From Candidatus Bathyarchaeota archaeon (lineage in GTDB: Archaea > Thermoproteota > Bathyarchaeia > TCS64): DNA of 36,778 nucleotides. The DNA is taken from positions 1 through 36,778 of the forward strand of contig JAPKYO010000003.1 of assembly GCA_026394265.1 (NCBI GenBank). Direction: 5' to 3'. Every line of letters starts with the position of its first letter. Position 1 is the stretch's first letter. A program made the translations under genes and the position numbers. Under the pieces are notes generated by a model, which saw nothing but the letters and a program-made list of their open reading frames with translations, was not told where the DNA came from and searched no databases. This document shows positions 2,216 through 25,316 of this stretch, piece by piece.

Positions 2216-3442
2216 TTGGCAGCCGAGGCTCGTTCACGGACCGCTGACATCCTCTCGATCTACGTGCCAGCTTTCTTCATCTTCCTCGGCATGGGCATAG
2301 TCTCCCCCATCCTCGCCATCTACGCGGAGACATTCAACGTCACCTACGCCCTCGTCTCCTTCGCCATCTCCATGTACGCCATCGGGCGGTTCCTCGCGGA
2401 CATCCCCGTGGGCATCCTCGCCGACAGATACGGGCGCAAGCCACTCATGATCGGCGGAACGGTGCTGCTGATCATCAGCTCCTTCCTGAACGCGACGGCA
2501 GTCGAGTACTGTCAGTTCCTCGCCTACCGACTTCTAGAGGGGGTAGGAGCCGCGATGTGGATCACGAGCCGCCAAGCACTCCTAGCAGACATCCTCCGCC
2601 CCGAGGAGAGGGGGAGAGTACTCAGCTACTTCAGCTCCTTCATGCTCATAGGCTCCGCCGCTGGTCCAACGGTGGGTGGGCTCGTCGCCAGCACCTGGAG
2701 CATACGCGCCCCATTCTACATCTACACCGTGGTCAGCATCATCAGCCTCATCCTCACCATCATATTCATCAAGGAGACAAACGTCACCCACGCCGTCCAC
2801 AACACCGGCGGCTCAGGGTTCTCCATAGCAGCCGCCAAGAAGATACTGTCGAAGAAGAACTTCATCATGGCCAGCGTCGCCACGTTCACGATGTTCTTCC
2901 TCACCGCTGGTGTTCGTGACATGATCATACCCCTCTACGCGTCCAACGTAGTCGGCCTCGACGAGGCCTCGATCGGGTACATACTCAGCTTCGCGACTGT
3001 CATCAACCTGTTCCTGACCATCCCCATCGGTTACATGATAGACTCTCAGGGGAGAAAATCCGTCATACTGAAGAGCCTCTTCGTCACCTCGGGGGCCTGC
3101 CTAGTATTCTCCTTCACGAACAGCTTCTGGACGATGGCCGCGGCGGCGATCGTGCTCGGTATAGGCACGAGCGGCGCTCAGCAGGCTCCGCAGGCGATGG
3201 CGACCGACGTGACCATCGACGACCCACACGGCCTATCGATGGGCCTCTACAGGGTCTTCGGCGACGTCGGGTTCATCGTGGGTCCCACGATCCTCGGTTT
3301 CCTCGCCGACCGCTTCGGACTCACCGTGCCCTTCTACTTCATGGCGGCGCTCCTCTTCATCAACGGAATCCTCGTGATGAAGATCGCCACGGAGACCTTT
3401 GCGTCGAAGAAGATGAAGCAGAAACAAACACCCCCCGGGTAA
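2216..3442 (+). CDS. Major facilitator superfamily transporter
   Basis: A 408-residue integral membrane protein with about 12 predicted membrane segments, the normal MFS length. The loop between helices 2 and 3 has the MFS signature GILADRYGRKP (G-x-x-x-D-R-x-G-R-K), and the equivalent loop of the second half has GYMIDSQGRKS. It is therefore a proton-coupled or facilitative transporter of a small solute, most like drug/sugar exporters of the family; the substrate cannot be read from sequence. The TTG at 2216 begins with a short polar N terminus before helix 1, and the nearby ATG at 2211 is out of frame. It is flanked by unrelated genes with its own TATA-like box, so it is probably monocistronic. 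TAA stop. Confidence 0.85.
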   Translation: MAAEARSRTADILSIYVPAFFIFLGMGIVSPILAIYAETFNVTYALVSFAISMYAIGRFLADIPVGILADRYGRKPLMIGGTVLLIISSFLNATAVEYCQFLAYRLLEGVGAAMWITSRQALLADILRPEERGRVLSYFSSFMLIGSAAGPTVGGLVASTWSIRAPFYIYTVVSIISLILTIIFIKETNVTHAVHNTGGSGFSIAAAKKILSKKNFIMASVATFTMFFLTAGVRDMIIPLYASNVVGLDEASIGYILSFATVINLFLTIPIGYMIDSQGRKSVILKSLFVTSGACLVFSFTNSFWTMAAAAIVLGIGTSGAQQAPQAMATDVTIDDPHGLSMGLYRVFGDVGFIVGPTILGFLADRFGLTVPFYFMAALLFINGILVMKIATETFASKKMKQKQTPPG

Positions 3443-10464: not shown

Positions 10465-10959
10465 CTAGAGCTCGATTATCTGCGCCTCAAGTGTCTCCGT
10501 GTCGAGGACACCGATACTGCTTCTGCCCGTGACGTAGCCGCAGACTTCACCCGGGTTGATGACGAAGGTTGTGCCCACCTTGGCGATCTTCGCCTTGTGG
10601 TCGTGACCATGGACCACCACGTTGTAGCAGCCGTGTGCGGTGAGGGAGCGGAGCAGGGCGGCGTCGTGGCCGTGGAGGAGCGCAATCCTCTTACCATCCG
10701 CCTCGACTTCGGCGAAGTCGCCCACGATCTCCTTCCCGACCGCGGCGTAGACCTCCTTGAGCTTCTCCTTCTCGGCGCAGTTGTTGCCGTGGACGCCGAT
10801 CATCTTCGCCCCGAGCTCCGAGTAGGGCTTGGCGGTGAAGGGGCTCACGTAGTCGCCCGCGTGGAGGACGAGGGAGACGTCGAGCTCGTTGAGGCGCCTG
10901 ATGGCCTCCTTGATCATGGGGACGTTGTCATGGGTGTCCGAGATGAGGCCGAGGCGCAT
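10465..10959 (-). CDS. MJ0936/YfcE-type metallophosphoesterase
   Basis: A 164-residue calcineurin-like phosphodiesterase of the small MJ0936/YfcE group, acting on phosphodiester bonds with two metal ions. All metal-binding motifs are visible: ISDTHDN (residues 6-12), HAGDYV, GVHGNNC, LLHGHD and VVHGHDH; the protein ends GVLDTETLEAQIIEL. The natural substrate is not known for the group. Its ATG at 10959 overlaps the TGA that ends the extended pyruvate kinase frame (TGATG, tca at 10959-10961). That junction would be meaningless if pyruvate kinase really ended at the internal TAG 186 bp earlier. It ends in TAG, followed 10 bp later by the mutarotase gene. Confidence 0.9.
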   Translation of the reverse strand: MRLGLISDTHDNVPMIKEAIRRLNELDVSLVLHAGDYVSPFTAKPYSELGAKMIGVHGNNCAEKEKLKEVYAAVGKEIVGDFAEVEADGKRIALLHGHDAALLRSLTAHGCYNVVVHGHDHKAKIAKVGTTFVINPGEVCGYVTGRSSIGVLDTETLEAQIIEL

Positions 10960-12392
10960 CAGTCCTTCCTCCCAGCGTGGTAGAGGATGTTGCGGACCCT
11001 GAGTATCTCGAGGGTGCTCGTTCCCCCCGGTGCCTCTAGAGAGGAGCCGGAGACGACCATGATGGAGTCGGAATCTCTGACGTAGCCTTCCCTTAGGGCC
11101 CTGTTAACCGCGCGGACAATGAGTTCGTCCCTGTTGTCACTCCACTAGATGTCGAGGGGCTCGACACCCCAGTATAGGCGTATCCTGCGCGCTATCTTCT
11201 GCTCCTTCGAGACGGCGAGTATCCTCGTAGAGGGCCTGTACTTTGAGACCATGCGGCTCGTGAAGCCGCTTCGTGTGGGGACGATGATGGCGGAGGGCTT
11301 GACCGCCCCTGTCGCCATGGCGGCGAGGCTCCCTATGATGTCCGCGATGGGGTGCCCCTCCTGGGGCCTCTGCACGCTCCTGGGGGTCGCCCCCGCCTCG
11401 ACTGCGCGGCTTATGCTCTCCATCACGCGCACCGCCTCTATGGGGTGGGCGCCCATCGCCGTCTCCTCGCTCAGCATAATTGCGTCGGCGCCGTCGAGGA
11501 TGGCGTTGGCGACGTCGCTCGCCTCCGCCCTGGTGGGGCGGGGGTTCTCAACCATCGACTCCAGCATCTGCGTCGCGACGATTACCGGCTTCCCCGCCTC
11601 GTAGCACTTGGTGATGATCTTCTTCTGGAGTAGGGGGATGTCCCACGGGGGCACCTCGATGCCGAGGTCGCCACGTGCGACCATGATGCCGTCGCTGGCG
11701 TCTATGATCTCGTCGATGTTCTTTATGGCCTCGCCGTGCTCGATCTTGCTTATGACGGGCTGGTCGCCGTCCGCGTCCTTTATGGCCTCCTTGACTGTCT
11801 CGACGTCCTTCCTGTTCCTGATGAATGAGGCGGCGAACCAGTCGGCGCCGACTTGGATGCCGAACTCTATGCCCTTGAGGTCTTGCTCGGTTGGAGGGTG
11901 TAGGCTGAGGCTTGCGCCGGGGGCGTTGACGCCCTTGTGGCTGCTCGCTTCCCCGCCGCTGACTACTTTCGCGTCGAAGCCCTTGAAGTCGCCGTCGATC
12001 TTGGTGATGTCGAGTTCGATGAGGCCGTCGTTTATGAAGATGTGGCCTCCGGGGCGGACCTCGGCGGGGAGCTTGGCGTAGTTTACGGGGAGGGTGAGGC
12101 CCTCGCCTACGATGTTCTCGGTGGTGAACCTGACGGCGTCCCCCTCCTTGAGCTGGACGGGCTCCTTCAGGTCGCCGAGGCGTATCTTTGGGCCGGGGAG
12201 GTCGACTAGGACGGATACGGTGCCGAGGCTCCTTATGGCGCGTATGGTGTTCCTGTGGTCGTCGAAGCTGCCGTGGCTTAGGTTGACGCGCGCGACGTCC
12301 ATACCCGAGGCAGCCATCTCCTTGAGTATGTCCGGCCTCTTGCTCGCGGGCCCAATGGTGCAGACTATCTTGCTCCTCGCGTAGCCGTCCAT
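10959..12392 (-). CDS. pyk: Pyruvate kinase with an in-frame UAG at codon 416
   Basis: Converts phosphoenolpyruvate and ADP to pyruvate and ATP, the last step of glycolysis. From the ATG at 12392 the first 415 residues read as a normal kinase: GPASKRPDILKEMAASGMDVARVNLSHG, the KIEHGEAIKNIDEI and MVARGDLGIEVP active-site segments, TRAEASDVANAILDG and LSEETAMGAHP. The frame then meets TAG (cta at 11145-11147) inside the C-terminal domain, just after WGVEPLDI. Beyond it the same frame continues for 61 residues (WSDNRDELIVRAVNRALREG, then MVVSGSSLEAPGGTSTLEI) and stops at TGA 10959-10961. This is a typical pyruvate kinase tail and brings the total to 477 positions, the usual family length. The TGA overlaps the next gene's ATG. 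It may be readthrough, pyrrolysine, a recent nonsense mutation or a base-call error. The gene shares a divergent promoter with the NTPase at 12461. Confidence 0.85.
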
Positions 12393-13064: not shown

Positions 13065-15380
13065 ATGGAATACGACAGGATTCTGAGCGACCTGCTCAAC
13101 AGGGACGAGTACTTCGTCGTTGGGAAGAAGACGGTCCGGTCCGACGCCCTCGACAAGCTGCTCGGCAAGGCACGCTTCACGAGCGACTACATCCCCAAGG
13201 ACACGATGGTCGTCAAGGTGCTGCGGAGCACGATGCCACACGCCCTCCTGAAGAGGGTCGACACCACGGCGGCCCAGAGGGTCCCGGGCGTCGTCTCCAT
13301 ACTCACGGGGCGGGACGTCCCGGGGGAGAACGAGATAGGCTACGCCATGCCGGAGCAACCCTTCCTCAACGACGTCAAGGTCCACTACGTCGGCGACCCG
13401 ATTGCCCTCGTCTGCGCGGTCGACGAGGTCGCGGCGCAGGAGGCGCTTGAGGCCATAGTGGTCGACTATGAGCCGCTGCCGGCGGTGCTCGACATAGACG
13501 CGGCACTCGCCGAGGGCGCCTCTATCGTTCACAAGGAATCCAACGTCGCCCTCAAGACGAAGATCAGGAAGGGCGACATGGTCAAGGGGTGGAAGGATGC
13601 CAAGGTCATCGTCGAGGACACCTACTGGTCGCCGTACCAGGAGCACATGTGCCTCGAGCCCGAGGCCGCGTACGCCGTCGCCGACGGCGTCGGCAAGGTC
13701 ACAATCATCGCGTGCATGCAGAGCCCCCACCTAGTCAGGGAGAAGGTCGCCCGTGTCCTCGGGTGGAAGCTCAACCAGGTCAGGGTCATACAGGCATTCA
13801 CGGGGGGCGCCTTCGGTAAGAAGGATGACACGGGTCCCCTCATAGGCGCATACGCTGCGTTGGCAGCGGTGAAGACGGGTAAGCCCGCCGCATACATCAT
13901 GGACCGGAGCGAGGTCCTCGCCGCCACCCCGAAGCGGTTCCCGGCCCGCTTCAAGTACAAGTCGGGCGCCGACGCTAAGGGGAACATGACCGCAGTCGAG
14001 GTCGAGATAACACTCGAGGTGGGCGCATACGCCAACCGTGCCCCCTTCTGGCTATGGAGGCAGACCGCGCACGCCTGCGGACCCTACGAGGTCCCAAACG
14101 TGGCTGTTGACGGCCGCGCCGTATACACGAACAAGGTCTACGGCGGCAGCTACCGCGGCTTCGGAAACCTCGCCCTCCACTTCGCCGCCGAGCAGCAGGT
14201 CGACAAACTCGCCTACGAGCTGGACATGGACCCCGTTGACTTCAGGATGAAGAACATCCTCAGAGTCGGCGGCCACACGACCTGCGACCAGGAGCTGGAC
14301 AGCAGCGTCGGCATCGAGAAGTGTCTGGCGGGCGCCGCGGCGGCCTCTGATTGGTGGAAGCACAGGGAGCCGGTCCGGGTCGGGACGAAGGTCAGGGGCT
14401 GGGGCGTTGGATGCGCCTACCACGGCAACAGCACGAGCCGCAGCACGCCCGACTGGAGCGCCGCGTCACTCATGATACACATGGATGGGAGCCTCACCTA
14501 CCGCACATGCATCTGCGAGATAGGGCAGGGCTCACCATTCGGCCACGCCAAGATAGTCGCCGAGATCATAGGCGCCGACCTAAACGACATCAAGATAGAG
14601 CAGCCCGACACCGACACGACGCCGGACTCTAAGCCGACGCACGGCAGCCGGGGACTCATGATGGGCGGATCAGCCGCCGCGGACGCCGCAATACAGCTCA
14701 GGGCCCGCATGGTCAGGGTATCCGCCGACATGCTCGGCTGCCCCGAGGCGCAGGTCGAGCTACGCGACAGCCACGCCTACAACAAGAAGAAGCCAGCGAC
14801 GAAGATACCCTTCGCCGAGATAGCGGAGCAGATGCACATCCGGGGGGAGAACCCCGCCAGCTACGGTTTCTACACCTCCCCGCGCCGCTACTTCGACCCC
14901 GAGACGGGCCTCGGGCACAACTACGCCGTCTACACCTTCGCCGCCTCCGTCGCCGAGGTCGAGGTCGACACCGAGACGGGCATCGTCGAGGTGACGAAGA
15001 TCTGGCCCGCGATGGATGTGGGCAAGGCGATTGACCCCCTCATCATTGATGGGCAGATACACGGCGCGATAAGCCACGGCGTCGGCTTCGCCATAATGGA
15101 GAACCTCCAGCTAAGGGACGGCGTCGTCACGACGACGGGCTTCAAGGACTACATCATACCCTCGGCCCTCGACACCCCCGAGATCGGGGACACGATAGTC
15201 GTCGAGGAGGCGTACAAGCACTCGGCCTTCGGCGCCAAGGGCGTCGGCGAGCCCAGCATCATCAGCATCGTCCCCGCGGTGGTCAACGCCATCCACCACG
15301 CCACGGGCATCAGGTTCAGCACGATCCCCATAACCCCGGATCGCATGCACAAGGCGCTCAAGGAGGCTGGCAAGTGTTGA
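13065..15380 (+). CDS. XDH-family molybdenum hydroxylase, large (Mo-cofactor) subunit 1
   Basis: A 771-residue catalytic subunit of a three-subunit molybdenum hydroxylase, the group with xanthine dehydrogenase, 4-hydroxybenzoyl-CoA reductase and aldehyde oxidases. It binds molybdopterin cytosine dinucleotide. The N-terminal domain (GKARFTSDY, VLTGRDVPG-like region) leads into the Mo-binding part, with FTGGAFGKK, SYRGFGNLALHFAAEQ and the active-site base Glu729 in GAKGVGEPS. Gly lies where aerobic CO dehydrogenases have Cys in AYxCSFR, so this is not a form I CO dehydrogenase. It probably hydroxylates an aldehyde or N-heterocycle, substrate unknown. ATG 13065 is preceded by an AT-rich TTCTAAATAC (13023-13032). 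Its stop overlaps the start of the FAD subunit, giving gene order large-medium-small. Confidence 0.9.
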   Translation: MEYDRILSDLLNRDEYFVVGKKTVRSDALDKLLGKARFTSDYIPKDTMVVKVLRSTMPHALLKRVDTTAAQRVPGVVSILTGRDVPGENEIGYAMPEQPFLNDVKVHYVGDPIALVCAVDEVAAQEALEAIVVDYEPLPAVLDIDAALAEGASIVHKESNVALKTKIRKGDMVKGWKDAKVIVEDTYWSPYQEHMCLEPEAAYAVADGVGKVTIIACMQSPHLVREKVARVLGWKLNQVRVIQAFTGGAFGKKDDTGPLIGAYAALAAVKTGKPAAYIMDRSEVLAATPKRFPARFKYKSGADAKGNMTAVEVEITLEVGAYANRAPFWLWRQTAHACGPYEVPNVAVDGRAVYTNKVYGGSYRGFGNLALHFAAEQQVDKLAYELDMDPVDFRMKNILRVGGHTTCDQELDSSVGIEKCLAGAAAASDWWKHREPVRVGTKVRGWGVGCAYHGNSTSRSTPDWSAASLMIHMDGSLTYRTCICEIGQGSPFGHAKIVAEIIGADLNDIKIEQPDTDTTPDSKPTHGSRGLMMGGSAAADAAIQLRARMVRVSADMLGCPEAQVELRDSHAYNKKKPATKIPFAEIAEQMHIRGENPASYGFYTSPRRYFDPETGLGHNYAVYTFAASVAEVEVDTETGIVEVTKIWPAMDVGKAIDPLIIDGQIHGAISHGVGFAIMENLQLRDGVVTTTGFKDYIIPSALDTPEIGDTIVVEEAYKHSAFGAKGVGEPSIISIVPAVVNAIHHATGIRFSTIPITPDRMHKALKEAGKC

Positions 15381-16249
15381 AGCCGCTCACGGGATTCGAA
15401 CTGCTGCGCCCACCAACCCTCGTTGGGGCGCTTGAGATGATGGGCACGCTGGAGAGCGCGATGCCCATAGCGGGGGGCACGGACATCGTCCCCACCTTCA
15501 AGGACCTCGGCTCCAAGCCGGTCCACCTGATCGACCTCGGGCTCATAGGCGAGCTGAACGGCGTCGAGGAGGAGGACGGCTACGTGCTCATCGGGCCTAC
15601 GACGACCCACGCGCAGATTCTGGCGTCGAAGCTCGTAGAGGAGGCGGCGCCCGCGCTTCACGACGCGGCGCGGTGGATAGGTAGCGTCCAGATCAGGAAC
15701 AGGGGCACAATAGGGGGCAACCTATGCAACGCGTCCCCAGCCGCAGACTCCGCCCCACCGCTCCTCGTACACGGCGCAGAGGCACACATCTGCAGCCTAG
15801 AGGAGGGCCACTGGATACCCCTACAGGAGCTATTCAAGGGGCCAAAGATGACGGTGCTCGAGAAGAACGAGATACTCGGCGGCCTCAGGTTCCCCGCCGT
15901 CAAGGGAGCCGGCAGCAGCTTCCAGCGCATCGGCAGGCGCAAGGGGTTCACGCTGAGCGTCGTCAACGCCGCGGTCTACGCGGAGAGGGACGGCGAGGCG
16001 CTCAGGGAGGTGAGGATAGCCCTCGGCAGCGTCGCGCCTACACCGATACGCGCGCCGACGGTAGAGAACAGGATCAGGGGCAGGAAGATGAGCGAGGAGT
16101 TGATTGAGGAGGCTGCGGCCGCATCCATCGAGGCGGCGAAGCCCATCACCGACATACGTGGCACCGCCGAATACCGCAGGGACATGGTCGGCGTGCTCGT
16201 CAAGCGCGCCATGCGTGAGGCTTGGCGCCGCGCCGGAGGTGAGCTGTGA
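15374..16249 (+). CDS. XDH-family FAD-binding (medium) subunit 1
   Basis: A 291-residue FAD subunit (CoxM/CutM type) that takes electrons from the 2Fe-2S subunit to an acceptor. The two flavin-binding motifs are present: AGGTDIVP (about residues 35-42, the AGGTD pyrophosphate loop) and TIGGNLCNASPAADS (the TxGGNLxxxxPxxD motif, about residues 112-128). The C-terminal CO_deh_flav_C domain ends with PITDIRGTAEYRRDMVGVLVKRAM. The start is GTG 15374 or the next codon TTG 15377, which overlaps the large-subunit TGA; a GGAGG at 15362-15366 is a fitting ribosome site. The stop TGA overlaps the ATG of the small subunit (TGATG). Middle gene of the operon. Confidence 0.9.
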   Translation: MLKPLTGFELLRPPTLVGALEMMGTLESAMPIAGGTDIVPTFKDLGSKPVHLIDLGLIGELNGVEEEDGYVLIGPTTTHAQILASKLVEEAAPALHDAARWIGSVQIRNRGTIGGNLCNASPAADSAPPLLVHGAEAHICSLEEGHWIPLQELFKGPKMTVLEKNEILGGLRFPAVKGAGSSFQRIGRRKGFTLSVVNAAVYAERDGEALREVRIALGSVAPTPIRAPTVENRIRGRKMSEELIEEAAAASIEAAKPITDIRGTAEYRRDMVGVLVKRAMREAWRRAGGEL

Positions 16250-16713
16250 TGGTGAACTTCGAGCTCAACGGCGCAGACGTCTACGTCGAGGCACCCGCCA
16301 CGATGACCCTGCTCGACATGCTCCGCCAGGAGCTAGGCGTGAAGAGCGTTAAGAAGGGCTGCGAGCAGGGCGAGTGCGGGGCGTGCACGGTGCTGCTCGA
16401 CGGCTACCCCATGACCTCATGCCTAATCCTAGCACCCCAGGTCGAGGGGCGCCACGTCTGCACCATCGAGGGCCTCATCGACAACCCCCTGATGAAGGAG
16501 CTGCGTGAGGCATTCATGGAGAACGGCGCCGTCCAGTGCGGCTTCTGCACCCCGGGGATGCTTCTGAGCGCCTACGCGCTGCTCAGGGACAACGGGCACC
16601 CGTCTGAGGACGAGGTGAAGACGGCGATAGAGGGGAACATCTGCCGCTGCACGGGGTACGTCGCCATCATCGAGGCGATTCTCGACGCGGCGGAGCGAAT
16701 AGCCCCCGACTAG
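16249..16713 (+). CDS. XDH-family 2Fe-2S (small) subunit 1
   Basis: A 154-residue iron-sulphur subunit with the two [2Fe-2S] domains of molybdenum hydroxylases. The N-terminal plant-ferredoxin-type domain has CEQGECGACTVLLDG plus a later Cys in MTSCLIL. The C-terminal helical domain has CGFCTPGM and CRCTGYVAI. It passes electrons from the Mo site to FAD. I prefer ATG 16249 (GTG 16246 precedes it), because the ATG overlaps the FAD subunit stop as TGATG and a GGAGGTGA lies just upstream. It ends with a TAG that forms a shared CTAG with the stop of the convergent DMSO-reductase-family gene. Last gene of the first XDH-type operon. Confidence 0.92.
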   Translation: MVNFELNGADVYVEAPATMTLLDMLRQELGVKSVKKGCEQGECGACTVLLDGYPMTSCLILAPQVEGRHVCTIEGLIDNPLMKELREAFMENGAVQCGFCTPGMLLSAYALLRDNGHPSEDEVKTAIEGNICRCTGYVAIIEAILDAAERIAPD

Positions 16714-21023: not shown

Positions 21024-21605
21024 CTACTTCTCGAAGAGGCGCTTGGCGCGCTCGAAGTCGGCGGGTGTGTCGAAGTCGACCGTGCTCCACTCGCCCCCCT
21101 CGACGTGTACGTGCGCGCCCTCGTGCCTCTCCACGACCTCCTTCAGCGTCCCCGAGAGGGCGAGTATCTCCCCGAAGAGGCTCCCCCTGAAGAGGACTGG
21201 ATGTCCCCTCCTCCCGCCGTGGGTGGGGCTTACGATGAGCGCCCCGGGGACGTCCTCCATCGCCGCCGCCATCCTGCGGATGAGCTCGGGTCTCAGCTCA
21301 AGCTGGTCGCCTAGGACGAGGAACGCCGCGTCGGCGCCGTCCATCGCCCTGATCCCCGTCTGGAAGCTGGTGGTCATCCCCTTCTCGTGGTCCGGGTTGT
21401 GGACGACTCGTACACCGTGAGCGGAGGCTATAACCATTATCGGCTCGGGGTTGTTACCCGTCACCACGACGACATCGTCAACCCCCTCAGTCAACGCGTC
21501 CAGAAGCCTGTCGAGGACAGTCCTCCCCCCGACCGTGAGCAGCAGCTTGTTCACGCCCATCCGGCTGCTCTTGCCCGCGGCGAGGACGACCGCCCCAGTC
21601 CTCAA
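21024..21605 (-). CDS. mocA: MocA-type molybdenum cofactor cytidylyltransferase
   Basis: A 193-residue nucleotidyltransferase that adds CMP to molybdopterin, giving the cytosine dinucleotide cofactor needed by XDH-family enzymes. The nucleotide-binding signature VLAAGKSSRMGVNKLLL is at the N terminus (about residues 7-23). Later family segments are VVVTGNNPEPIM, NPDHEKGMTTSFQTGI, LVLGDQLEL and GHPVLFRG. The start is TTG 21605, which overlaps the small-subunit stop by four bases (TTGA). A longer in-frame start exists further up, but it would run through the small-subunit gene. It is the fourth gene of the second XDH-type operon, fitting MocA rather than the GTP-using MobA. Ends in TAG. Confidence 0.88.
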   Translation of the reverse strand: MRTGAVVLAAGKSSRMGVNKLLLTVGGRTVLDRLLDALTEGVDDVVVVTGNNPEPIMVIASAHGVRVVHNPDHEKGMTTSFQTGIRAMDGADAAFLVLGDQLELRPELIRRMAAAMEDVPGALIVSPTHGGRRGHPVLFRGSLFGEILALSGTLKEVVERHEGAHVHVEGGEWSTVDFDTPADFERAKRLFEK

Positions 21606-22072
21606 CCCGGTCCCTTCATCTTCGCCGCGGCCGACTGAACCGCCTTGACGATGTTGACGTAGCCCGTGCAGCGGCACATGTTCCCCTTCAGGTACTCCCT
21701 GATCTCCGTCTCCGTCGGCTGGGGCTTCTCCGAGAGGAGCGCCTTCGTCGACATGATGAAGCCGGGTGTGCAGAAGCCGCACTGGACCGCGCCCTCCTCG
21801 AGGTACGCCTCCTGGATGGGGTGGAGGCGGTCGTACTCGCCGAGGCTCTCTATGGTCTCAAGCGTCCTCCCATCCGCGTCGACTGCGAGTATCATGCAGG
21901 CGAGCACCGACTCGCCGTCGAGGAGCACCGTGCAGGCGCCGCACTCCCCGACGCCGCATCCGTACTTGGCGCCGGTGAGCAGCATGTTCTCACGTATCAG
22001 GCTGAGTAGCAGCGTGTTCGGCTCCACGTCGAAGCCCCTCGGCTTGCCGTTGACCCTTATTGTGATCTTCAT
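21602..22072 (-). CDS. XDH-family 2Fe-2S (small) subunit 2
   Basis: A 156-residue iron-sulphur subunit with two [2Fe-2S] clusters. The plant-type domain has CGVGECGACTVLLDG with an upstream YGC and a later Cys in VLACMIL. The C-terminal domain has CGFCTPGFIMS and CRCTGYVNI. ATG 22072 overlaps the stop of the FAD subunit (TGATG); GTG 22075 is the alternative. The stop TGA overlaps the TTG of mocA. Compared with subunit 1 at 16249 it has the same architecture but is clearly diverged, so the two enzymes are not a recent duplication. Confidence 0.92.
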   Translation of the reverse strand: MKITIRVNGKPRGFDVEPNTLLLSLIRENMLLTGAKYGCGVGECGACTVLLDGESVLACMILAVDADGRTLETIESLGEYDRLHPIQEAYLEEGAVQCGFCTPGFIMSTKALLSEKPQPTETEIREYLKGNMCRCTGYVNIVKAVQSAAAKMKGPG

Positions 22073-22968
22073 CACTTGTCCCTCCTTGAGTCCTCGAGGA
22101 TGCGCGTAAGCGCCTCCATGGCGAGTCCCTTCGAGGCGAGGCGCCTGTACTCGGCTGTCCCCCTGATGTCGGTGATTGGCTTGATGCTCTCCGAGACGAG
22201 CTTACCCGCCTCCTCGACGGCGTCGACGGTCAGCTTCTTCTTCGCCAGGCTCTGCTCGACGTTCCTGAGTCTGAGTGGGGTGGGTGCTACTGCGCCCATG
22301 ACGACCCTGATGCCCTCCACCGTCTCCCTCTTCATCTTCGCGTTGACGGCGATGCTGACTGTGGCGAGGTCGAGGCTCGTCCTCCCCAGCTTTATGAAGG
22401 CGCCCCTGTTTCCCTCCTCCGGGTAGGGGAGCGTCAGGCTCGCCAGCAGCTCACCCCTGCCGAGGACCGTCCTCCCCGGACCCGTGAAGAAGCTCTCAAG
22501 CTCTATACTCCTCTCCCCCGTCGGCCCGGCGATGTTCGCCTTGGCGCCGAGGGCTACGAGTGCCTGCGCGCTGTCCGCCGCGGGGGACGCGTTGCAGAGG
22601 TTCCCCCCGACAGTTGCCATGTTCCTGATCTGCACCGAGCCGATCGCGACGACCGCCTCGTGCAGGAGGGGGAGCTTCTCGGTGACTATGATGCTCCTCT
22701 CTAGGTCGCGGAGCCGCGTGAGGGCGCCGATCCTGATCTGCTCAGCCTCCTCGCGGACCCCCGCGAGTTCGGGTATGTGCTTGAGGTTGACGACGTGCTT
22801 CGGCTTGAGTAGTGCCTGCTTCATCTTGGGGACGAGATCGGTGCCCCCTGCGAGGACCGCCGCCTCCACGCCGTGCTCGTCCAGAAGCTTCACCGCCTCC
22901 GCTACGCTCGCCGGCGCGTGGTACTCGAAGCCGCGTATTATGTGGGTGTTGTGCGTGTTGATGCTCAT
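22072..22968 (-). CDS. XDH-family FAD-binding (medium) subunit 2
   Basis: A 298-residue FAD subunit. Flavin-binding motifs are LAGGTDLVPKMKQ near residues 39-51 and TVGGNLCNASPAADSAQ near residues 118-134. The C-terminal domain ends with PITDIRGTAEYRRLASKGLAMEAL. It carries electrons between the 2Fe-2S subunit and an external acceptor. ATG 22968 overlaps the large-subunit stop by four bases (ATGA), and its own TGA overlaps the small-subunit start. Middle gene of the second operon. Confidence 0.92.
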   Translation of the reverse strand: MSINTHNTHIIRGFEYHAPASVAEAVKLLDEHGVEAAVLAGGTDLVPKMKQALLKPKHVVNLKHIPELAGVREEAEQIRIGALTRLRDLERSIIVTEKLPLLHEAVVAIGSVQIRNMATVGGNLCNASPAADSAQALVALGAKANIAGPTGERSIELESFFTGPGRTVLGRGELLASLTLPYPEEGNRGAFIKLGRTSLDLATVSIAVNAKMKRETVEGIRVVMGAVAPTPLRLRNVEQSLAKKKLTVDAVEEAGKLVSESIKPITDIRGTAEYRRLASKGLAMEALTRILEDSRRDK

Positions 22969-25316
22969 TGCTGACCCTCCTTCTGATGCAGCGCCGCGAG
23001 AATCTTGTCCCGGGTAATCGGTAGGTCGTAGAACCTGACGCCGAGGGCGTTCTGGATCGCGTTCGCCACCGCCCCAGCGACTGGGTTGAGCGCCCCCTCG
23101 CCTATCCCCTTCGCGCCGAAGGGACCCGTCTCCTCGTAGGTGTCCACGAAGAAGACCTTGAAGTCTTCGAGATGGGGCATGTCCCGCGCCGTGGGTATCT
23201 TGTAGTCGGTGAGGAAGCCCCTGTTGACGAGGTCACCCGTCCGGGGGTCGTGGGGCATGTCCTCTAGGAGGGTCATGCTCCACCCCTGGGCGAAGCCGCC
23301 GTGTATCTGCCCCGCGGCGAGCGTCGGGTTGATCACAGTTCCGATGTCAGCGCCCGCTATGATCTTGATCGGCCGCACCTTGCCCGTCCACGTGTCAACC
23401 TCGACCTCGACGAAGTAGCCGGTGAAGTGGGGCGGGCAAGCCGGCTGGCGGTAGCTGTCGACGGAGGCGATTGTGCCCCAGTTCTTGTGCCTCATCGTGT
23501 AGGCGATCTCCTTGAACGTCAACTCGCGCCCCGCGACGCCCTCCGCGTAGACGACCCCCTGCTTCCGAGCGGGGTCGACCCTGAACTTGAGCGCGTGTGG
23601 GTAGGCGTCGAGTATCTTGCCCGCGTTCTCCCTGATCTTGTCCTTGACCTGCTTCGCGACCTTGAGGGCTGCTCCGCCGCCGGAGTAGATGCCCCTGCTC
23701 GCGTGTGTGCAGACGTCGTAGACGGTGGTGCTGGTGTCCGCCTGGATTATGTTGACGTTGTCGAGGGGGACGCATAGCTCCTCGGCGATGATCTTGGCGT
23801 GCGCCTCGACGGTGCCGCCGCCGTGGTCCATGAGGGCGGTGACGTAGTCGAGTGTACCGTCCTCGTTGAGTTTGAGGAGGGCTCCGCCGAAGTCGACGAC
23901 GGTCCCCGGGACGGGCGCTCCGGCGCTGCTCGTGTGGTAGCCGCGCCCCATGCCGACGCCGCGCCTGTAGCGACCCGCCTGGCTCCCCGCCTTCGGGCGG
24001 TTGTACCAGTCGATCATCTCCGCGCCACGCGTCAGAATCTCCTCGACGCCGCAGCTCTGGATGATGCTCTTCACCGTCGGGCCCTGTCCCCAGAAGAGGT
24101 CGCCCTGCCCGATGTAGTTCATCAGGCGGAAGTCGACGGGGTCCATCCCTATCGCCTCGGCGAGTTCATCCATCATGCATTCGGTCGCCCAAGTCATCTG
24201 GGGGTTGCCGTAGCCGCGGAAGGCGCAGCTCGGAACCTTGTTCGTGTAGACGGCGACGCCCCGGTAGCTCTTGGCGGGGAGCTTGTAGAGGCTAACCCAC
24301 CAGCCCACGATGCAGCCGAGCAGCGGGTACGCCTGTACCTGGTGTCCGCCGATGTCGAGCCAAGCGTCGAGGTGACCAGCGGTGAGCTTCCCGCTACGCT
24401 TCACCCCCATCTTGAGCTTGAATATCATGCTGTAGCTGACGTGGTCGTGCATGTCCTCCTCCCTGGTTAGGCTGAGGCGAACTGGGCGCCGCGTCTTCAG
24501 CGCCATCGCGACGGCGATCGGGACGACGGCGTTGACCTGTATACTCGACCCGAAGCTCCCCCCGAGGCTCGCCTTCATTACGCGTATCTTGCCCATGGGG
24601 AGGCCGAATATCTCGTGAAGTAGCAGCCTCGTGTTGTGGAGGGTCTGCGTCGTGCTCCAAATGGTGACTCCGCCGTCCGGCTCCGGCTTCACGAGCACAC
24701 TCTTCGTCTCAAGCTGGACGTGGTACCTGCGGTTCGTCCGGTACTCCCGCTCGATGATGACGTCCGCCTCCTTGAACCCGGCGTCGACGTCACCCTCCCT
24801 GCTGTCGAGGGTGCATGCGATGTTGCTCTCGATCTTCAGGACGCTGTCCTTGAGCGTGATCTCGTCGTGCAGCATGGCTCCGAGCTTCATCGAGTCGATG
24901 GCGTCGTAGGCTGCGGGCAGGGGCTCGTACTCCACCTTGATGAGTTCGAGCGCCGCCTGCGCCTGCTCCTCCGTCTCCGCGGCTACTACCGCTATGGGCT
25001 CGCCGACGTAGACGGGTTTCCGGGCGAGTATGTGCCAATCCTTGTAAGTTGCCTCGGGTGTGCTTACTAGGCGCGGGCAGAACCTCATCTCGGGCACGTC
25101 GTCGGGTGTGACGACGGTTGCGCCGAGTTTCTCGGCTTCCACCTTGTCTATCTTTGTGACCCTGGCGTGTGGGTTGGTGCTCTTCAGGATGCGCGCGTGC
25201 AGCATCCCCGGTAGGGCGAGGTCGCTGGAGAAGTGCTCCTGTCCAGTGACCTTCGAGACGCCGTCCTTCCTCGGCGTGTCCCTGCCGATGACCTTGTAGT
25301 GGCTCTGCCCGGACAT
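22965..25316 (-). CDS. XDH-family molybdenum hydroxylase, large (Mo-cofactor) subunit 2
   Basis: A 783-residue catalytic subunit binding molybdopterin cytosine dinucleotide. Landmarks in order are GKDTPRKDG-type entry, SSDLALPGMLHARIL, KASLGGSFGSS, CAFRGYGNPQMTWATE, GRGYHTSS, HGGGTVEAHAKI and the active-site base Glu740 in GAKGIGEGAL. In the position where form I CO dehydrogenase has AYxCSFR this protein reads AFRGYGN, with Gly instead of the catalytic Cys, so a CO dehydrogenase call would be wrong. Probable substrates are an aldehyde, heterocycle or aromatic acyl compound. It leads the operon large-medium-small-mocA and has a well-placed TATA-like box for a leaderless ATG at 25316. Confidence 0.9.
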   Translation of the reverse strand: MSGQSHYKVIGRDTPRKDGVSKVTGQEHFSSDLALPGMLHARILKSTNPHARVTKIDKVEAEKLGATVVTPDDVPEMRFCPRLVSTPEATYKDWHILARKPVYVGEPIAVVAAETEEQAQAALELIKVEYEPLPAAYDAIDSMKLGAMLHDEITLKDSVLKIESNIACTLDSREGDVDAGFKEADVIIEREYRTNRRYHVQLETKSVLVKPEPDGGVTIWSTTQTLHNTRLLLHEIFGLPMGKIRVMKASLGGSFGSSIQVNAVVPIAVAMALKTRRPVRLSLTREEDMHDHVSYSMIFKLKMGVKRSGKLTAGHLDAWLDIGGHQVQAYPLLGCIVGWWVSLYKLPAKSYRGVAVYTNKVPSCAFRGYGNPQMTWATECMMDELAEAIGMDPVDFRLMNYIGQGDLFWGQGPTVKSIIQSCGVEEILTRGAEMIDWYNRPKAGSQAGRYRRGVGMGRGYHTSSAGAPVPGTVVDFGGALLKLNEDGTLDYVTALMDHGGGTVEAHAKIIAEELCVPLDNVNIIQADTSTTVYDVCTHASRGIYSGGGAALKVAKQVKDKIRENAGKILDAYPHALKFRVDPARKQGVVYAEGVAGRELTFKEIAYTMRHKNWGTIASVDSYRQPACPPHFTGYFVEVEVDTWTGKVRPIKIIAGADIGTVINPTLAAGQIHGGFAQGWSMTLLEDMPHDPRTGDLVNRGFLTDYKIPTARDMPHLEDFKVFFVDTYEETGPFGAKGIGEGALNPVAGAVANAIQNALGVRFYDLPITRDKILAALHQKEGQQ

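Follow-up and report, generated by a model that had tools for sequence, protein, structure and literature searches.

A pyruvate kinase gene, pyk, that is broken by a single in-frame stop codon lies in a stretch of 36,778 nucleotides from a Candidatus Bathyarchaeota archaeon (contig JAPKYO010000003.1, positions 1 to 36,778; this whole stretch is called the window below). The frame is read on the minus strand from 12392 to 10959 (10959..12392) and comprises 415 sense codons (11148..12392), a TAG at codon 416 (11145..11147, cta on the plus strand), 61 further sense codons (10962..11144) and a closing TGA. With the single internal TAG included it spans 477 positions. The closing TGA overlaps, as TGATG, with the start ATG of the gene that follows on the minus strand (10465..10959), which codes for a calcineurin-like phosphoesterase (PF12850). 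Both the internal stop and this overlap had been reported in a first-pass annotation of the DNA, and both are confirmed here. That annotation left four explanations standing, namely UAG readthrough or pyrrolysine insertion, a regulated switch between a short and a long form, a young nonsense mutation and an assembly error. Our analysis argues strongly that the TAG is an isolated single-base nonsense change confined to the window sequence, and not a recoding signal.

Domain profiles place the gene firmly among the pyruvate kinases, with PF00224 and PF02887 both matching above their cut-offs, even when only the 415-residue form is considered. The barrel domain PF00224 corresponds to residues 6-321 and lies wholly upstream of the TAG, and the C-terminal PK_C domain PF02887 corresponds to residues 354-464 of the read-through form. 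In terms of the profile, the 415-residue form covers positions 4-63 of 114 and the read-through form positions 4-114. Hence codons 1-415 hold the entire barrel and about the first half of PK_C, the 61 codons after the stop supply the remainder, and PK_C stays incomplete unless reading continues past the TAG. The sequence after the stop is no chance open frame, because 18 of the 20 residues that directly follow it match those of the nearest genome found, and 60 of the 61 tail residues are identical to those of P0002, the closest homologue. The earlier view that the tail is a genuine pyruvate kinase end therefore holds, as does the view that 477 is the normal length: among the 46 closest homologues listed (78-97% identical, within 120 listed matches), 39 have exactly 477 residues. 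The proposed regulated switch would alternate between a short protein of 415 residues and a full-length one in which the C-terminal domain is complete. The stop does lie in this domain, but it falls inside PK_C and not at its border, such that the short form would end within the domain, and it is shared by none of the 46 homologues. We consider such a switch highly improbable.

To place the stop among its orthologues, we aligned codon 416 across relatives, as the first-pass annotation had proposed. The nearest genome found, G001 (L001), is a Bathyarchaeota metagenome-assembled genome of isolate UBA8941 with a pyk that is 92% identical; together with G024, G002 and G027, each of which carries parts of the gene order of the window, it was compared at the DNA level. 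Residue 416 is glutamine in all 46 of the closest pyruvate kinases among the matches listed, and the codon is CAG in all four relatives, which differ from the window at this codon by one C-to-T step. The stop was found in none of the 46, and a search with the 415-residue form yielded no homologue ending at 415 residues among the 120 listed. Across these best 120 homologues the position is held by Q (48), P (26), A (20), V (13), E (4), K (3), I (2), S (2), G (1) and T (1). A position that is fixed in the close group and free outside it is a poor fit to a special functional residue. P0002, at 97% identity, is itself full length with glutamine at 416, and agrees with the window at 402 of 415 residues before this codon and 60 of 61 after it; the stop therefore postdates the split between the window and P0002. 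On this comparison, the C-to-T change is on the window's own branch among the sequences compared. An exact search with the DNA of the site, in one version with the codon starting in C and in another with it starting in T, gave no match in viral contigs or in 184 loci. The solved structures that match pyk, among the matches listed, are ordinary pyruvate kinases only.

The age of the stop can be gauged from the constraint on the tail. The ratio of nonsynonymous to synonymous substitution rates (dN/dS) for codons 1-415 and codons 417-477 is, respectively, 0.091 and 0.090 against G001, 0.105 and 0.099 against G024, 0.104 and 0.178 against G002, and 0.167 and 0.137 against G027. When substitutions were assigned to branches, counting only sites with three agreeing outgroups, the window branch showed 3 synonymous and 0 nonsynonymous changes in codons 417-477, besides the stop, and 6 synonymous and 8 nonsynonymous changes in codons 1-415. 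The corresponding figures on the G001 branch were 1 and 2 for codons 417-477, and 17 and 8 for codons 1-415. Judged by these substitutions, the tail is under protein-level selection still, or was until very recently. Such constraint is compatible alike with an error in the sequence, with a mutation of very recent origin and with readthrough, and does not separate them.

Readthrough has the open and conserved tail in its favor, and decoding of UAG as glutamine would yield the very sequence of the relatives. We looked at how TAG is used elsewhere in the window, in a list of 36 genes, including pyk, chosen from open reading frames and matches to relatives. TAG ends 18 of these genes, TGA 12 and TAA 6. 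The first-pass annotation had counted 19 UAG stops among 37 other genes; our figures differ, and its substance stands. Of the 18 genes that close with TAG, 10 have a counterpart in one or more of the four relatives that closes with TAA or TGA no more than 2 residues away, indicating that TAG is a working stop in the window. When the frames of the relatives were compared with the window, pyk was the sole gene accepted as cut by a stop with conserved flanks on both sides, and by our reading the remaining stops from this comparison are either upstream of a likely start or in a frame that is not the coding one. TAG is thus not rare as a terminator, and no other internal TAG was accepted in the window, where the other listed frames are free of internal stops by construction of the list. 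Genome-wide reassignment of TAG was accordingly rejected. Likewise, with half of the genes ending in TAG, a general suppression would lengthen many proteins.

The decoding machinery was next examined in relatives. The synthetase PylS (TIGR02367) reaches its cut-off in none of the 27 draft genomes of the family of G001. Matches far below the cut-off occur in 18 of the 27, and likewise in 12 other controls; of the 14 controls, M. acetivorans alone reaches the cut-off. In the class as a whole PylS exceeds the curated cut-off in 3 of the 256 genomes searched (L114, L115 and L116), and a Bathyarchaeota lineage with both selenocysteine and pyrrolysine is mentioned in a passage of a 2022 review (PMC9499178). 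These two observations lend pyrrolysine at the UAG of pyk some initial plausibility, but no PylS above the cut-off was found in the 27 family genomes, the UAG is not conserved in orthologues, the close relatives have glutamine at a position that varies over the 120 homologues, and codon 416 lies outside the PF00224 barrel. A pyrrolysine system was rejected on these grounds, and we regard the insertion of this amino acid in pyk as scarcely credible.

As for a suppressor tRNA, Rfam matches to tRNAs number 28 in G001 and 33 in G024. We scanned 58 of these tRNA-bearing loci with ARAGORN (28 from G001 and 30 of the 33 from G024), of which 54 gave a gene, and no tRNA with a CUA anticodon was called in these two draft relatives, neither of which is the window's own genome. 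Of the four loci without an ARAGORN gene, one of which is L211, the other three were seen in alignments; one has a CAU loop, and in two the anticodon opens with GU and is then broken by an insert. By our reading none of the three appears to be CUA. From the 58 loci scanned, a suppressor tRNA in the two relatives was judged unlikely. ARAGORN also labeled one tRNA of G024 'tRNA-Stop (tta)' and gave its counterpart in G001 as an undetermined '(tt)' (L226 and L199). The anticodon loop of each carries about 20 additional bases, and from their sequences these are probably intron-bearing tRNA-Lys(TTT) genes. In the window we found no tRNA of any kind, and no Rfam family at its gathering score. The 104 nucleotides from the stop onward are predicted to fold less stably than most shuffled versions (z 1.22), of which 184 in 200 were equally or more stable. 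Programmed readthrough would have to proceed at a stop that is not conserved and for which no stimulatory structure was found in the downstream RNA. In a passage of a 2021 review (PMC8211752), the archaeal readthrough that has been shown is that for selenocysteine and pyrrolysine. Given that PylS did not reach its cut-off in the 27 family genomes, that no CUA tRNA was called in two draft relatives and that no unusual fold was found, together with glutamine in 46 of 46 close homologues and TAG as an ordinary stop, the earlier suggestion of UAG readthrough or pyrrolysine finds no support in our results. That site-specific readthrough or a natural amber-suppressing tRNA-Gln yields the full-length enzyme in this strain strikes us as very unlikely.

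The background of isolated stops in related drafts offers a further comparison. We surveyed sampled, rather than whole, contig sets of the window, G001, G002, G024 and G027, along with six other Bathyarchaeota loci, and 49 candidates for internal stops passed the filter (24 TAG, 13 TGA and 12 TAA). The surroundings were translated for six candidates and for the G002 phosphoesterase; the rest, besides pyk, were judged from the 25 residues shown. Candidates in L338 and L186 were rejected, as the stop lies before a likely start, and others were set aside as being in a wrong frame or ahead of the start. Six internal stops, including that of pyk, were accepted by eye: 4 TAG, 2 TAA and no TGA. The other three TAGs are found in a gltX-like gene of G001 (L274:3839, contig C12) at a glutamate position, in a frame that is otherwise open and in our reading encodes a glutamyl-tRNA synthetase; in the G002 phosphoesterase gene adjoining pyk (codon 122, L177:7935, contig C26), where the window has lysine and where the C-terminus also looks altered; and in an MFS-like gene of G002. 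The two TAAs interrupt an MFS-like and an M20-like gene of G001, these names and that of the G002 MFS-like gene being our own reading of the sequences. As in pyk, each of the three other TAGs is a single in-frame stop in one genome with conserved flanks and a sense codon in the relatives compared; they differ from it in affecting other genes and other residues (E, K or V, and S). Over all six stops the residues replaced are Q, E, K or V, S, G and S.

From the codon usage of the window, the opportunities for reaching a stop in one step are 2084 for TAG, 458 for TAA and 446 for TGA (70, 15 and 15%), against which 4 TAG, 2 TAA and 0 TGA represent no excess of TAG. This further argues against readthrough. 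Per matched codon, the accepted stops amount to 1 in about 11,800 in the window, 3 in about 30,600 in G001 and 2 in about 65,800 in G002; G024, with about 53,000 matched codons, and the remainder, with about 20,200, have none. Pooling G001, G002 and G024 gives a rate that predicts about 0.4 for the window, and one stop there is therefore not unusual. Counterparts of window genes with a stop or a frame break number 3 of 21 in G001, 5 of 32 in G002, 3 of 26 in G024 and none of 8 in G027. Among them, one case in G001 and two in G002 are clear frame breaks; several of the others stem from starts set too far upstream, and both frame breaks in G024 coincide with runs of N. It is conceivable, yet in our estimation very unlikely, that the population has either a tRNA that suppresses amber codons, most likely a variant of tRNA-Gln, or a readthrough element specific to the site, by which UAG would be read as glutamine in pyk while still ending about half of the genes. 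In an extended form of this proposal, the three TAGs in the gltX-like gene of G001 and in the phosphoesterase and MFS-like genes of G002 would be traces of amber tolerance in the clade. Were such readthrough true, an archaeal central metabolic enzyme would rely on a recoded UAG outside pyrrolysine.

Some other features of the window were recorded along the way. Two genes downstream of pyk, on the same strand, lies a gene of the L-rhamnose mutarotase family (PF05336, 10134-10454). An MFS-like gene (again our reading) at 2216-3442 has further nearby copies in the matching regions of G001, G024 and G027, about 46-51% identical over most of their length. Two three-gene sets of the molybdopterin-dependent, xanthine dehydrogenase type are found in opposite orientation at 13065-16713 and 21602-25316, and the large subunit of each set is about 29-33% identical to copies, in relatives, of the large subunit of the other set.

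Returning to the isolated nonsense change, a glutamine codon CAG would have become TAG by one base, on the window's branch only. Of the four explanations in the first-pass annotation, the young nonsense mutation and the assembly error fit all findings, and the other two are unsupported. An error of consensus or assembly has, in our judgment, roughly an even chance of being the cause, and is slightly more likely than a real young mutation. The latter, to which we assign a somewhat less than even chance, would be a nonsense allele, fixed or segregating, in a population that makes the 415-residue chain only and whose pyk is starting to decay. If the allele is real, its product is expected to be a chain of 415 residues, probably unstable, in which the barrel is whole but only about half of PK_C is left, and pyk would be on its way to becoming a pseudogene. 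Its role might then be taken by a PPDK_N protein (PPDK / PEP synthase type), which most relatives possess. A pyk match is absent from 6 of the 27 family genomes, and PPDK_N matches over the cut-off occur in 25 of the 27, including all six without pyk, suggesting that the step may be replaceable. However, the drafts without pyk may simply be incomplete, and the PPDK_N match is weak and partial in G001 and wanting in G027, which makes a ready replacement in the nearest relative less likely. Moreover, in a gene with no second lesion and no relaxation of constraint on the tail, such a mutation would have to be very young. The residue is also kept in all 46 close homologues.

Several points weigh against reading the TAG as an isolated nonsense change. 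The findings fit an error and a young mutation alike and do not separate the two. The open frame past the stop is also what readthrough predicts. The evidence on suppressor tRNAs comes from drafts of relatives and is thus not direct for the organism of the window. The comparison with other stop lesions rests on a choice by eye among 49 automatic candidates, and the density of these lesions is uneven, from three in G001 and two in G002 to none in G024 over the matched codons given above. A limited literature search on nonsense errors in assembled genomes turned up nothing related. Even so, we hold the recoding explanations to be improbable even when taken together. What the case mainly illustrates is that recoding can be mimicked by single in-frame stops in archaeal assemblies from the environment; where CAG, AAG and GAG codons abound in a genome, most such stops should be TAG. 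The natural comparison is with the methylamine methyltransferases of methanogens, MtmB, MtbB and MttB, in which UAG encodes pyrrolysine; pyk resembles their genes in that an archaeal reading frame, open in all other respects, contains a UAG. In contrast to these genes, the position in pyk is glutamine in 46 of 46 close homologues, and no PylS over the cut-off was found in the 27 genomes of the family of G001.
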